NCBI RefSeq assembly: GCF_015209595.1
Contig: NZ_JADEYS010000004.1
Coordinates: 124,001-188,000 of the forward strand
DNA from: Pontibacterium sinense
GTDB taxonomy: Bacteria > Pseudomonadota > Gammaproteobacteria > Pseudomonadales > Balneatricaceae
DNA: 64,000 bases
Direction: 5' to 3'
Position 1 is the stretch's first letter. Each line of letters starts with the position of its first letter. Position numbers and translations under genes: made by a program. The notes under the pieces are model-generated. The model was not told the origin of the DNA, made no database searches, and saw only the letters and a list, made by a program, of their open reading frames with translations. Below, piece after piece: positions 30,217-58,978 of the stretch.

Positions 30217-30675
30217 TTACAGCCAGATTGCATCCCACAATGGATAATCTTTAACTGACTTAACTAATCCAGCTCTAAGAGGGTTAGCTGTGATGTAGCG
30301 TGCGAAATCCCTCACCTGTTCTTCATTGCGTATTGCTTGATCATAGTAACCTTTTGCCCAAATTTTTCCTGACAAAACTGCATTCTGATGAATGTAACGA
30401 GCGGAGGTTGCTTTAACAAAACGTACTGAATTTTCCAGCGAAGAGCCTTTTTTCAGCTGCATTAACCAATGTAGATGGTCCGGCATGACGACGTAAGCAA
30501 GTGTATGAGTGGATTGTTCTGCTTGTCTAAGCGCCTGTACGACGCATCGCCCCGCATACAGATTCTGAAAGTATTGCTGTCGCTGATAGGTGACGCTAGT
30601 AACCATATAAATTTGGTGGTCTGCTGAAACTCGACCGATACGTAGGTTTTGGGAACGAAAGCGTGATAAAGCCAT
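30217..30675 (-). CDS. REP-associated tyrosine transposase (RAYT, Y1_Tnp)
   Basis: A 152-residue IS200/IS605-like HUH nuclease of the RAYT group (TnpA-REP). The HUH motif lies in AYVVMPDHLHWLMQLKKGSS and the catalytic tyrosine in GYYDQAIRNEEQVRDFARYI; NPLRAGLV near the end is a RAYT signature. RAYT proteins bind and cut REP hairpins and are domesticated single-copy genes rather than free insertion sequences. REP units flank it at 30105-30180 and 30713-30738, the usual genetic unit. The start at 30675 has AAGG nine bases upstream. No TnpB gene is present. Confidence 0.93.
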   Translation of the reverse strand: MALSRFRSQNLRIGRVSADHQIYMVTSVTYQRQQYFQNLYAGRCVVQALRQAEQSTHTLAYVVMPDHLHWLMQLKKGSSLENSVRFVKATSARYIHQNAVLSGKIWAKGYYDQAIRNEEQVRDFARYITANPLRAGLVKSVKDYPLWDAIWL

Positions 30676-54579: not shown

Positions 54580-56790
54580 ATGAATCAACGCAAAATCCGC
54601 ATCTTGTTTGGCCTGTTCCTGACGCTGCTGGTGCTAATCCCGGTATTGACCGGTAACCGGCCGTTGTTACTGGAGCGGTTTGAGCTGGATCTCTACGATC
54701 TGCGGTTGCAGCAGACTCTGCTGAACGAGCAGGACCCGCGTATCGTCATTGTGGATGTGGATGAAAGAACCATGTCACAAGAGGGACGCTGGCCCTGGAG
54801 CCGTGACAAGGTAGCGGCGATGGTTGATCGACTGTTTGATCAATACGGCGTTGCGATTGTGGGTTTTGATGCGGTCTTTCCTGAACCCGATACCCAGATC
54901 AGCCGGTACACCTTGCAGCAAATCTCAGAAGGCGAGTCCAATCTCAATGTAAGAGACCTGCTGAAGTTATCCACCTATCTCTATCCCGATCAGCGTTTTG
55001 CCGATGCGATTGATTCACGGCCGGTGGTATTAGGGTTTCCCTTTGATCACGGCACGCTGGATCGTACCGGTGCACAAACAGTCGGGGCATTGTCCGCGCC
55101 GGTATTGGCACCTGACCCTCGTTTGAAGTCGATCCCGTTTCCCACCGCCGATGGCATGATCGGCAACCTGCCGCTGCTACAGGAACGCACATTATGGGGC
55201 GGGTTCTTCGACAATCCATCTGTTGATGTGGACGGCGTGTATCGCCGTGTGCCGCTGCTACAGCGTTATGAAGATCAGTATTACCCATCACTGGCGCTGT
55301 CGATGATGATGGCGCTGTTCGGCGAAACCGAAGTAGTACCGGTGATCGAATCGGATGCCACCGGAAAACACAACGCGATCACCGCAGTGGAAGTGGCAGG
55401 TATCCCCGTGCCGGTTGATGAACACAGTGCTGTACTGGTGCCTTACCGTGGACCGCAAGGCAGTTTCCCTTATGTGTCGGCCACCGATGTCCTGCGTGGC
55501 ACCGCCGATCCTAACGTGCTGGACGGCGCGATTGTGTTGATCGGTACCACGGCGGCGGGGTTGTTCGACCTGCGGGTTACGCCCATGAGCAGCCGTTATC
55601 CTGGTGTGGAAGTACACGCGAACATTTTGTCCGGCATGCTGGATGAACGTATCCATCACCAGCCGGATTACACCGTGGCGGTGGAACTGGTGCAGCTGGT
55701 ACTCAGTGGTTTGCTGATGTCGTTGCTGATCCCACGCTTGTCGGTGATCTGGGGTGGGCTGCTGACGCTGGTCTGGCTCAGTATGGTGCTGGCACTTAAT
55801 GTATATGCCTGGGCTGCCTTGATGTGGGTGATCCCATTGGGCTACACACTGGTGCTGGTTGTAGTGTTGTTCCTGTTCCAGCAGATGACCGGTTTCTTCT
55901 TCGAAACCCGTAACCGTAAGCAGCTGGCCGGTGTGTTTGGTCAGTATATTCCACCGGAGATTGTGGCCGAGCTGAATACCGAAGGTGCAGAAGCGCAGCT
56001 ACAGGGTGAAAGCCGTGATATGACCGTGTTCTTCTCGGATGTCCGCGGGTTTACCGGGTTGTCTGAATCACTCTCCCCGCAGCAGCTGACACGGATGATG
56101 AACGTCTACCTGACACCGATGACGGAAGTGATCCACAGTTATCGGGGCACAGTGGATAAGTATATCGGTGATGCTGTCATGGCCTTCTGGGGGGCGCCGT
56201 TGGAAGATCCTAAACATCCGCGCCATGCGCTGGATGCAGCGATGAAAATGCAGGCCGAACTGGAAAACGTAAATGCGTTGCTTGCCAGTGAAGGTTTACC
56301 CGCGATCTCGGTGGGTATGGGTGTTCACTGTGGTGAGATGAACGTAGGGAACATGGGTTCCAGTTTCCGCTTGGCGTACACCGTGATGGGGGATGCGGTG
56401 AATTTAGGTGCGCGTCTGGAAGGATTGACTAAATTTTATGGGGTGTCGATCTTAGTCAGTGGTGAGCTGGTGGCACGGGTGCCTGAATACCGGTTTATGG
56501 AACTGGATCGGGCGCGTGTGAAAGGGCGCGCTGAACCGGTGACGCTGTATCAGCCACTTTGTCTGGAATCCGAATTGGACTCCGCCGCTGCTGAACAGGT
56601 TGAACGGTTTGAAGCGATGTTACTGGCGTATCGTTCGCGGGAATGGCAGCAGGCACTGGCGTTTTTGGATCAGATGGATGAGGCGGTGATCAGCCCGGTG
56701 TTGATTGAATTGTATCGGGAGCGGATTACGAGCCAGATTGATGCGCCAGCTGATGACTGGGATGGGGTGCATAATCATTCTTCGAAGTAG
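54580..56790 (+). CDS. CHASE2-domain class III adenylate cyclase
   Basis: A 736-residue membrane protein: TM1 (about 9-27), a periplasmic CHASE2 sensor (about 30-340; DPRIVIVDVDERTMSQEGRWPWSRDKVAAM and VPLLQRYEDQYYPSLALSMMM), three helices (about 355-435), then a class III cyclase domain (about 470-650). That domain shows MTVFFSDVRGFTGLSE (metal Asp), VDKYIGDAVMAFWGAP (second metal Asp and the substrate-selecting Lys) and YTVMGDAVNLGARLEGL, all as in adenylate cyclases. A C-terminal tail of about 80 residues follows. It is likely co-transcribed with the GAF-GspE gene. ATP as substrate is inferred from the Lys/Asp pair. Confidence 0.92.
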   Translation: MNQRKIRILFGLFLTLLVLIPVLTGNRPLLLERFELDLYDLRLQQTLLNEQDPRIVIVDVDERTMSQEGRWPWSRDKVAAMVDRLFDQYGVAIVGFDAVFPEPDTQISRYTLQQISEGESNLNVRDLLKLSTYLYPDQRFADAIDSRPVVLGFPFDHGTLDRTGAQTVGALSAPVLAPDPRLKSIPFPTADGMIGNLPLLQERTLWGGFFDNPSVDVDGVYRRVPLLQRYEDQYYPSLALSMMMALFGETEVVPVIESDATGKHNAITAVEVAGIPVPVDEHSAVLVPYRGPQGSFPYVSATDVLRGTADPNVLDGAIVLIGTTAAGLFDLRVTPMSSRYPGVEVHANILSGMLDERIHHQPDYTVAVELVQLVLSGLLMSLLIPRLSVIWGGLLTLVWLSMVLALNVYAWAALMWVIPLGYTLVLVVVLFLFQQMTGFFFETRNRKQLAGVFGQYIPPEIVAELNTEGAEAQLQGESRDMTVFFSDVRGFTGLSESLSPQQLTRMMNVYLTPMTEVIHSYRGTVDKYIGDAVMAFWGAPLEDPKHPRHALDAAMKMQAELENVNALLASEGLPAISVGMGVHCGEMNVGNMGSSFRLAYTVMGDAVNLGARLEGLTKFYGVSILVSGELVARVPEYRFMELDRARVKGRAEPVTLYQPLCLESELDSAAAEQVERFEAMLLAYRSREWQQALAFLDQMDEAVISPVLIELYRERITSQIDAPADDWDGVHNHSSK

Positions 56791-56842
56791 GTTTTTCTTC
56801 TGCACCTAATGTGGATTGGGTGTTATTCGGATATACCTACTT

Positions 56843-57325
56843 TCGCCCCTGTTGGGCGAGGTAAGGGAGGGTGTTGGCCCTCCCTTACCAATCCCTGCCA
56901 ACCCCACTACTTGCCTCGCGTTGCGAGGTTCCTTGTGCGCTTCATAATCAGTCGAAGCTGCGGAACTCGGCCTTTGGCCTCAAACAGTCCTCGCTTTAAG
57001 CCGACTGATTATTCCAGTGCTCAGCTGCGTAGAGGGGCTATCGATTGTGCCAGCGTTGAGACAATGCCCTTGAATCTAACTTTTTCTACGGGGTGAAGTG
57101 GTATCAGTTTGCTGAGGGAGTATGGCCCCTTTACGCAGCCGAGCATTGCAGAAAGAAAGCGTTAAAAACGAATTCTGTCTGAGGCTGTAGGCCGAGTTTA
57201 TTCGTTTAGCTTTATTTCGAAACGCACAGGGTATTCTGCGAAGCAGAACAAGTAGTGGGGCTGACGGGGATTGGTAAGGGGAGTTCAGATACTCCCCTTA
57301 CCTCGCCCAACAAGAGCGAAACCAG
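56843..57325. repeat. Pair of ~200-nt structured repeats in inverted orientation
   Basis: This 586-base gap (56791-57376) holds no gene. The left unit (about 56843-57042, +) matches the reverse complement of the right unit (about 57119-57325): both run TTCGC...TTGGGCGAGGTAAGG, then CCTTACCAATCCC, CCCCACTACTTG, TGTGCG, ACTCGGCCT, GCTGCGTA.AGGGG. Each unit has its own small hairpins: 56861-56888 versus 57274-57301, and 56914-56928 versus 57234-57248. Bases differ between the copies but pairing is kept: three covarying pairs in the first hairpin and four in the second. This shows selection on structure. The centre (57043-57118) is not repeated. No function is known to me. Confidence 0.85.
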
Positions 57326-57376: not shown

Positions 57377-58978
57377 TCAAGCGTATTCCCTCAACCCCGG
57401 TAAACTCCCCAAATCCACCTCATCCAACTGCCGCTCAGCCATATGCCGCTCCCCATACTTCCGATACGTCCCACTGTGGGCAAACAGCGCAAACAGATCC
57501 GGGTCCAGATGACCCTCTTCCACCATACGGCCCATAATGGTCATCGACTGTGATAGCTTCATCCCCTGCTTATACGGACGATCAGCCGAAGTCAGGGCTT
57601 CAAAAATATCCGCAATACACATAATGCGCGCCCGCAGTGAAAGCTGCTCAGCATCCAACCCACGGGGATAACCTTTCCCGTTCAGGCTTTCGTGATGATT
57701 GCAGGCGATCTCCGTCACGTTGCTTAAGTTACGAGGGTAGGACAGGGATTCCAGCATATCGATGGTGACTTTGATGTGGTCACGCATGATCTGACGTTCG
57801 TCTTCGGTCAGAGTGCCACGGGTGATGCAGAGGTTTTTAATCTCATCGTCGGACAACATACGTCGGGTCTGGCCGTTCACATCCACCCATTCAGAGAGGC
57901 CGATCCGCTCGACACGTGCCTGATGTTCGGGAGCCATAAACTCGCCACCGATGTTGGCTTTTTGCAGGAAGGTGAGGTCATCGTCCAGTTGTGCACAGCG
58001 TGCTTCAAATTCGGTTTGTGCATCCGCAGCTGCTGTTAGGTCTAAACTGGGCAGGGCGCGCAGCAACTCAATTTCAAGTTGCTGTTTGTGTTCACGAAAG
58101 CGGCCTTCAACCAGTTCAATACGGTCGATTAAGGTATGTAACTTAGTCGCTTTGTCGATGATCGCTTCCGGTGTGGTGATCTTGCCACAGTCATGTAACC
58201 AAGCCGCTACTTTCAGCTCGTACATCTCCTCATCGTCCCACTGCGTATCCGCATAAATACCATGGTCTGCGCTGTTCACGGCATCGGCCAGTAACATCGC
58301 AATTTCAGGTACGTGTTCGCAGTGTTTACCGGTCACGGGTGACTTATGGTCAATGGCCCGGCCGATCAGCTGGATAAAGGATTCGAATAGCACCCGCTGA
58401 CCGTCCATCAGCTTTTGCTTGGTCAGCGCGGTTGCTGCCAGAGACGCAACCGATTCAAACAGGGCTTCCTGTTTAGTGGAAAACGCGACGATATTACCCT
58501 GTTCGTCCTGCGCATTGATCAACTGCATGACGCCGATCATCTGACCTTCGTGATCCTTCAGCGGCACTGACAGAAAGGATTGGGAGCGATAGTTCAGCTG
58601 GTCGTCGAATGCCAAAGTCCCGGAGAAGTCGTACTGACCGCAGCGATAGGCATCGGGAACGTTGATTGTTTTTTCTGTCAGGAACGTCTGAACGGCGACC
58701 AGTTTGGATTCGCCACCGCTTTCCGTATGCAGCAGAACACTGGGCAGGTTTTCTGGTTTGGTATTCAGCGCTAATGAACGGTTTCGTAACACACGGAAAA
58801 CCAGTTCGTTGCTGTCTTCATCAGAGAGGGTGTAGAGCGAACCGCCATCGGCATTAGAGAGGCTGATACAGCCATCTATGATCTGCTCCAACAGGCGCTC
58901 ATGGTCTTTCTCGGCGCTCAGTGCATAGGCCAACTGGGCGAGTTGATGGGCAATATCCTTGGTGCTTCCTGTGCTCAT
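57377..58978 (-). CDS. GAF-HD-GYP cyclic-di-GMP phosphodiesterase
   Basis: A 533-residue cytoplasmic protein. A GAF domain covers about 18-190 (CISLSNADGGSLYTLSDEDSNELVFRV, QSFLSVPLKDHEGQMIGVMQLINA). The HD-GYP domain (about 210-510) is interrupted by a helical insert of about 120 residues: VAAWLHDCGKITTPEAI is followed by the insert, then RDHIKVTIDMLESLSYPRNLSNV, HHESLNGKGYPRGLDAEQLSLRARIMCIADIFEALTSADRPYK. The HD pair, the HHE and GYP motifs are intact, so c-di-GMP hydrolysis is expected. Placed after the cyclase but on the opposite strand. Confidence 0.92.
   Translation of the reverse strand: MSTGSTKDIAHQLAQLAYALSAEKDHERLLEQIIDGCISLSNADGGSLYTLSDEDSNELVFRVLRNRSLALNTKPENLPSVLLHTESGGESKLVAVQTFLTEKTINVPDAYRCGQYDFSGTLAFDDQLNYRSQSFLSVPLKDHEGQMIGVMQLINAQDEQGNIVAFSTKQEALFESVASLAATALTKQKLMDGQRVLFESFIQLIGRAIDHKSPVTGKHCEHVPEIAMLLADAVNSADHGIYADTQWDDEEMYELKVAAWLHDCGKITTPEAIIDKATKLHTLIDRIELVEGRFREHKQQLEIELLRALPSLDLTAAADAQTEFEARCAQLDDDLTFLQKANIGGEFMAPEHQARVERIGLSEWVDVNGQTRRMLSDDEIKNLCITRGTLTEDERQIMRDHIKVTIDMLESLSYPRNLSNVTEIACNHHESLNGKGYPRGLDAEQLSLRARIMCIADIFEALTSADRPYKQGMKLSQSMTIMGRMVEEGHLDPDLFALFAHSGTYRKYGERHMAERQLDEVDLGSLPGLREYA

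Follow-up and report, generated by a model that had tools for sequence, protein, structure and literature searches.

We analysed a window of 64,000 nucleotides from Pontibacterium sinense, in which a CHASE2/guanylate-cyclase gene (54580–56790, + strand) and a GAF/HD-GYP gene (57377–58978, − strand) flank a structured element at 56841–57321. The gap between the two genes held no open reading frame of 100 or more amino acids. An earlier note had placed two units of about 200 nt in opposite orientation at 56843–57325. The arms are indeed inverted copies, and the coordinates were correct to within a few bases. The element consists of a left unit on the + strand (56841–57037), a right unit on the − strand (57126–57321) and an 88-nt centre (57038–57125), which is gene-free here and may hold cargo genes in relatives. 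Model R1 (148 positions) scored the left unit at 156 bits (56890–57037) and the right unit at 144 bits (57126–57272); the left unit matched the profile from its first base. Unit length was 196–199 nt in the eight seed units.

Each unit runs through two hairpins, H0 and H1, and then a domain closed by stem P2 (CCCC-x-CTAC / GTAG-x-GGGG), which holds hairpin H2 and a stem, P3, capped by the large hairpin H3. On the + strand of the left unit, H0 (TCGCCC/GGGCGA) lies at 56843–56859, followed by H1 at 56860–56889 with perfect 12-bp arms (56860–56871 and 56878–56889). The two sides of P2 (CCCC-A-CTAC and GTAG-A-GGGG) occupy 56902–56910 and 57029–57037 and enclose H2 (CCTCGC/GCGAGG, 56914–56928), the 5′ side of P3 (56933–56941), H3 (56944–57012) and the 3′ side of P3 (57016–57024). 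A core found across phyla, TGCGGAACTCG..CTCAAACAGTCCTCGC, sits within H3 at 56959–56994 (model R2, 56.3 bits at 56943–57009), and the tip of this hairpin is kinked (GCGGAACTCG..CTCAAACAGTCCTCGC). The right unit carries, on the − strand, H2 (TTCTGC/GCAGAA) at 57234–57248, H1 at 57273–57302 (arms 57273–57284 and 57291–57302) and H0 at 57303–57319, which reads TCGCCC/GAGCGA on the + strand. Its H3 tip (57175–57199, − strand) belongs to another stem class, reading AAACTCGGCCTACAGCCTCAGACAG, as placed by alignment A2, and matched R2 partially (14.7 bits). These outer three hairpins were as the note had described them in both copies. H3, the largest hairpin and the one with the most widely common tip, goes beyond the note, as do the cross-phylum core and the cargo cassettes reported below. 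The copy in the window carries no cargo and belongs to a dispersed repeat family with two folded arms.

Folding and covariation of the units

Alignments A1 and A2 comprised 34 units from four genomes of the genus (G000, G002, G003, G004) and one of the same family (G023). Across the 39 pairs of P2, H2, P3 and H3, 94.5% of the 1319 pair cells were standard and 25 pairs showed changes on both sides. Because the units are paralogous and may exchange hairpin modules with one another, pair cells are not independent events. The covariation score was 0.469, compared with a shuffled mean of 0.143 (0 of 500 shuffles reached the observed value) and at most 0.107 for slid versions, on a structure chosen from the very sequences tested. 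The count of further pair types, taken alone, showed no excess (48 versus 49.5 in shuffles). Among single helices, both-side changes were found in 10 of 11 outer pairs of H3 (87.7% of cells paired) and in 5 of 6 pairs of H2, and the 8 pairs of P3, whose 3′ side was placed by covariation, were paired in 98.9% of cells. H0 showed such changes in 4 of 6 pairs (counted over the 22–23 units with letters on both sides) and H1 in 6 of 12 (84.9% of cells paired), which together gave 87.3% of cells paired and both-side changes in 10 of 18 pairs.

The closing pair CCCCACTAC/GTAGAGGGG, which the note had offered as a possibility, was borne out. RNAalifold recovered the stem without prior input, and A2 columns 18–158, 21–155, 22–154 and 23–153 showed both-side changes in 13, 5, 7 and 7 of the 34 units. 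The minimum-energy RNA fold of 56848–57037 on the + strand (−85.1 kcal/mol, z −5.73, 0 of 200 shuffles) was the covariation structure, closing stem included. With DNA parameters, the opposite strand of the left unit formed H1, H2 and H3, and the closing stem was absent (z −3.91).

The whole element was far more stable than its shuffles, with z values of −12.96 and −15.05 on the two strands, a large share of which is expected of any inverted repeat. Minimum energy for the whole element favoured one long palindrome across the arms, but we rejected this fold: H2 and outer H3 paired inside the unit in 12 of 12 paired elements (typically 6/6 and 9–11/11), and across arms only about half of these pairs formed. 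In three elements (L004, L018, L020) one arm carried CTAC..GTAG and the other CAGT..ACTG; here the closing stem formed 7–8 of 8 pairs within arms and 11 of 16 across. In 4 of the 12 paired elements the closing stem could pair equally well across arms (16/16), and this stem alone does not decide between local and cross-arm folding. The conserved feature is the local hairpins. The observation is real and larger than first described, and strong covariation among the 34 units supports the view that the fold is kept while sequence drifts.

Distribution and genomic placement

A copy count, as proposed in the note, found 10 units in the own genome, arranged as four facing pairs and two singles. Within the order, model R1 matched 44 of 390 genomes, the own genome among them, and 17 of 143 genera. 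When named genomes were scanned with an exact pattern of the H3 tip, at least 120 stretches emerged (L111–L230), a set in which the tip is invariant by construction. The matches listed include Marinobacterium, Dechloromonas, Thauera, Gallionella-like bacteria, Nitrospira and Coriobacteria, and further Barnesiella, Gastranaerophilales, Patescibacteria and Myxococcota; the cultured carriers Thauera propionica and Litorivivens lipolytica are also in this set. The tip was multicopy in records of Nitrospirales, Patescibacteria, Bacteroidales, Coriobacteria and Myxococcota. In 69 pattern-scan cores, 4 of 10 pairs showed both-side changes (score 0.165 versus 0.040 shuffled). All 14 genomes searched with model R2, drawn from diverse phyla, had multiple copies (3 to 75 per genome); most of these genomes are metagenome bins, and the presence of copies on many contigs argues against stray contamination. 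R2 matched at least 4 of 398 genomes in a phylum sample, own included, which is a lower bound because filters were strict and one core class was modelled. The distribution is patchy.

The window element had no match among the plasmids or phages searched. A Gallionella-type unit partially matched one Variovorax record and no phage or E. coli record, a Dechloromonas unit had no plasmid match, and a second, longer pattern had none in viral contigs. One viral contig carried a facing pair around a DUF2971 gene.

The note had asked whether copies always lie at gene ends. The 22 elements examined from the same genus or family were intergenic, save for overlaps with open reading frames of 100–132 amino acids and, at L004, with a longer one over its initial 50 bases; 9 of the 22 lay between convergent genes, and 5 lay between divergent genes. 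Five loci (L172, L228, L231, L073, L075) had an A/T-rich hairpin of the type GTTACTTTCTTTTGG..CCAAAAGAAAGTAAC in place of H1, as do many beta- and gammaproteobacterial copies, and this substitute gives rise to short open reading frames ending in strings such as LLAQKKANQRKRHP. Four elements of G002 (L014, L018, L022, L028) contained a nested REP-like palindrome, TGTAGGGTAGGC..CCTACCGGCAGC..GCTGCCCTACAG, in the element centre, inside of the left unit.

Facing units and their cargo

Among 53 neighbouring cores in the matches listed (L111–L230), 42 were + then −, 7 were − then + and 4 were on the same strand. A looser tally of 81 neighbour pairs includes the own locus and counts one contig twice, so the 53-core count is the cleaner. 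Cores of the facing pairs were less than 400 nt apart in 31 cases and farther in 11.

Cargo-size gaps, of 0.4 to 4.8 kb core to core, were found in 32 facing pairs (15 from the pattern scan, L075 and L076, and 15 more, 14 of them fetched after a further scan, plus L276). In relatives, one or two accessory genes stand between the units. We excluded L130 (one chance core), L168 (no unit, a housekeeping-like gene) and L203 (no open reading frame of 80 amino acids) from the cargo scan, and L312 had no facing core with the motif used. No full transposon sharing the element ends was seen in this limited sample of 32 bracketed intervals, 29 of which were scanned.

The cargo was diverse: 34 cargo proteins (the 36 recovered, minus those of L303 and L305) contained no similar pair at E 1e-3. 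A PADLOC scan of the 36 proteins from 29 intervals gave matches at E 1e-3 in 8 intervals and 9 proteins, named PD-Lambda-4, PDC-S67, PDC-S33 (a RelA/SpoT domain in Pfam), PDC-S31 (DUF2971), AbiLi with AbiLii, PD-T7-5, PDC-S47 (Abi_alpha in Pfam) and a weak PDC-M01B. In a control set of 21 flanking proteins there were also matches, to 10 models (6 names, each seen in a single protein), and we therefore do not claim an enrichment of defence genes in the cargo. Of 27 cargo proteins, 9 had a Pfam family above cut-off, as did 7 of 10 proteins from the flanks; the 27 included no transposase or recombinase.

Empty and exchanged sites

The CHASE2 and HD-GYP genes are adjacent in G003 and G001 and the element is absent, these genomes being too diverged, at 77% and 71%, for the exact insertion site to be read. 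In G002 the gap downstream of the CHASE2 gene was entirely different. This orthologous gap (L233) holds other REP-like repeats, of the CTCGTTCCCACGCTCTGCGTGGGA and TGTAGGGCAC types.

Two further loci revealed exchange of cargo. At a locus between genes that we take, from their sequence, to be RlmKL- and YgiQ-like, flanks and units of two species were 81–87% identical and the cargo was unrelated. In Gallionella-like genomes, the locus after lnt held a 175-aa gene in L228 and a 352-aa RelA/SpoT-type gene in L146, with similar units. Fifteen other genomes were compared here: ten had lnt and the downstream gene in one locus with no core (L314, L316–L319, L321, L322, L324, L325, L329), and in five the core and the downstream match were both absent. 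The lnt query also included a stretch (L228:1178–1236) of which 33–60 nt matched dozens of other places in Gallionella-like genomes; this is an unrelated short repeat inside a predicted coding region. We recognised no target-site duplication in the flanks by eye, and no empty site was close enough for base-by-base reading. These comparisons showed that the same site can be empty or hold different cargo.

Search for a known family, a linked enzyme and an active strand

The note knew of no named family that matched, and we agree: no Rfam family reached its gathering score in five loci of the genus, the window stretch or 15 loci of other taxa, where the sole match was a tRNA away from the element. 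A match to PrrB/RsmZ (RF00166) on the minus strand at 56859–56958 (23.3 bits versus a gathering score of 44) was taken as chance, and mir-6511 (21.5 versus 87) was likewise a weak match below threshold. We found no description of the repeat in the open-licence literature searched, and one may exist elsewhere.

A link to a transposase, which the note had proposed to look for, was not found near the units. Of two sets of 14 carrier genomes, which apparently have one genome in common (G116 and G417), 10 in the first and 9 in the second had Y1_Tnp, and the single-contig carriers G210 and G406 were without it. No credible core or unit was seen at 38 Y1 loci, in flanks that reached 1.5 kb at most and were shorter near contig ends: R1 had no match at E 1, and R2 had one, at 10.3 bits and E 1.8. 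The own genome contained five Y1_Tnp matches. One Y1_Tnp-like (PF01797) gene lies in the window at 30286–30609 on the − strand (38.8 bits), with no unit or core near. We rejected a RAYT linkage, as Y1_Tnp is neither constant among carriers nor near units. The integron integrase TIGR02249 was above cut-off in 4 of 13 carriers, one of them the own genome. An integron linkage was rejected also: the fetched flanks of these four loci and of one weaker match held no unit or core. The match in the own genome (G000:C49:232795–233736, − strand, 408 bits) has one internal stop.

The note had hinted at an RNA or one active strand, a part of its reading that mispair counts did not settle. In P2, H2 and the outer H3 stem, the unit strand had 24 A-C and 0 G-T mispairs. 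P3 had 63 G-T (61 of them in two fixed columns) and 1 A-C, H1 had 33 A-C and 23 G-T, and H0 had 2 A-C and 4 G-T. Twenty Patescibacterium hairpins had 22 A-C versus 3 G-T, many of the A-C probably being one inherited mismatch. A cruder count over 142 cores of many taxa, with five low-scoring stems left out, showed no bias (114 A-C versus 105 G-T). As these sets conflict, we discarded a strand preference drawn from G-T and A-C counts; the kept fold, the dispersed copies and the lack of an Rfam family are the parts of the note's overall reading that stand. The Patescibacterium genome G407 carries a solo form. Of its 25 counted copies, 20 were read; each is one long-stem hairpin between predicted open reading frames, and the unit strand was sense to both neighbours in 17, antisense in 2 and divergent in 1, a bias that points towards RNA.

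Discussion

We tentatively favour the reading that the units, recognised as folded DNA, terminate gene cassettes that are non-autonomous and bound to the chromosome, the window copy being one without cargo, though our confidence falls a little short of even. The folded tip, in single-stranded or extruded DNA, would be the signal for a trans-acting, strand-transferring enzyme that may act, by analogy, in the manner of IntI on attC or of TnpA-REP on REP. The elements would owe their insertion and amplification to this enzyme, and the swapping of cargo to homologous exchange between similar units. The differing hairpin variants of the two arms may favour local folds over a long, deletion-prone palindrome. 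Supporting evidence comes from covariation with controls, pairing within units, facing order, unrelated cargo, swaps at two loci, empty sites, a multicopy core across phyla, and the fixed mismatched or unpaired bases of core and P3. Against it stand the lack of a linked enzyme and of a recognised target-site duplication, and the near absence from plasmids, phages and E. coli, which is unlike most active mobile elements. The Patescibacterium sense bias, the conflicting strand signals, the cross-arm pairing of the closing stem in 4 of 12 elements and the left-unit DNA fold that lacks this stem also speak against it.

A bolder form of this reading, which we hold to be possible and rather doubtful, is that the elements form a bacteria-wide class of structured DNA, whose near-invariant tip is recognised by a recombination system not yet described. 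That system would assemble chromosome-bound, integron-like cassettes with facing folded ends and swap accessory genes, some of them anti-phage, at fixed sites; its enzyme would be either a widespread host protein or a dispersed recombinase encoded away from the elements.

It is unlikely, by our estimate, that the units are passive anchors, with RecA-type homologous recombination (e.g., after natural transformation) swapping the cargo, and slow duplication and gene conversion spreading the units with no dedicated enzyme. The RlmKL/YgiQ-like locus, where alike units and flanks enclose unrelated cargo, is what such anchors would produce, and they would agree with the near absence from plasmids and phages and with the lack of a linked enzyme. 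By itself, however, this process leaves unexplained the insertion at sites that are empty in relatives, the covariation of local folds and the near-identical core across phyla.

We also consider it improbable that the unit works as RNA at gene ends, where it would insulate in both directions, protect mRNA ends or serve as a regulatory structure, its spread being due to some unrelated process. The left unit's RNA fold equals the covariation structure and the opposite-strand DNA fold lacks the closing stem; intergenic placement, convergent neighbours at 9 of 22 elements and the Patescibacterium sense bias are of the same tenor. However, any transcript across a facing pair reads one of the two units in antisense, divergent genes flank 5 of the 22 elements, the unit strand has an A-C excess in three helices, and the bracketing of cargo would be left unexplained.

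Still weaker, and quite improbable, is the reading that a RAYT (TnpA-REP) transposase spread the elements as an ordinary REP/REPIN family. Like REP, BIME and REPIN sequences, the elements are interspersed, intergenic, palindromic hairpins that often form inverted dimers, and most carriers have Y1_Tnp. A REP unit measures 20–40 bp, and partners in inverted dimers may fold separately or as one large structure (PMC3733652); the units here are about 200 nt long and form a closed multi-hairpin domain. In addition, the tip is common across phyla, genes are bracketed and no linked RAYT was found: the fetched Y1 flanks were bare, and two single-contig carriers showed no Y1_Tnp. REPINs are not known to carry cargo genes.

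Integron cassettes (attC, CALIN) are folded sites beside single, exchangeable accessory genes, and the element shares with them an exchangeable cargo that includes defence-like genes. That the units are themselves attC-like sites is nevertheless very improbable: they differ in sequence, mostly face each other with only 4 of 53 neighbouring cores on the same strand and no array seen, show no attC end boxes by eye, and require no integrase, the few integrase loci found having no unit in their fetched flanks.

MITEs and mobile insertion cassettes (MIC) are non-autonomous, have inverted ends and may be empty or cargo-bearing. The element resembles them in having inverted ends without a transposase gene, but its ends are long and self-folding, with covarying hairpins, and neither a parent transposase nor a target duplication was seen. 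Extrahelical bases are typical of attC, and mismatches of REP hairpins; the unpaired tip bases and fixed P3 mismatches of the element resemble these in kind. The element works like REPs and gene cassettes, yet it fails defining features of both, and there is a real chance that the family is a kind of its own.

On a modest reading, we have described a covarying family that is searchable with models R1 and R2 and can guide the discovery of cargo genes. If the folded-DNA cassette reading is true, these repeats would be an unnoticed class of cassette-forming elements, partly misread as spurious small open reading frames, and their hairpin could be used as bait for the enzyme. Bacterial chromosomes would then have, besides integrons, a second folded-DNA route to gather and swap accessory genes.
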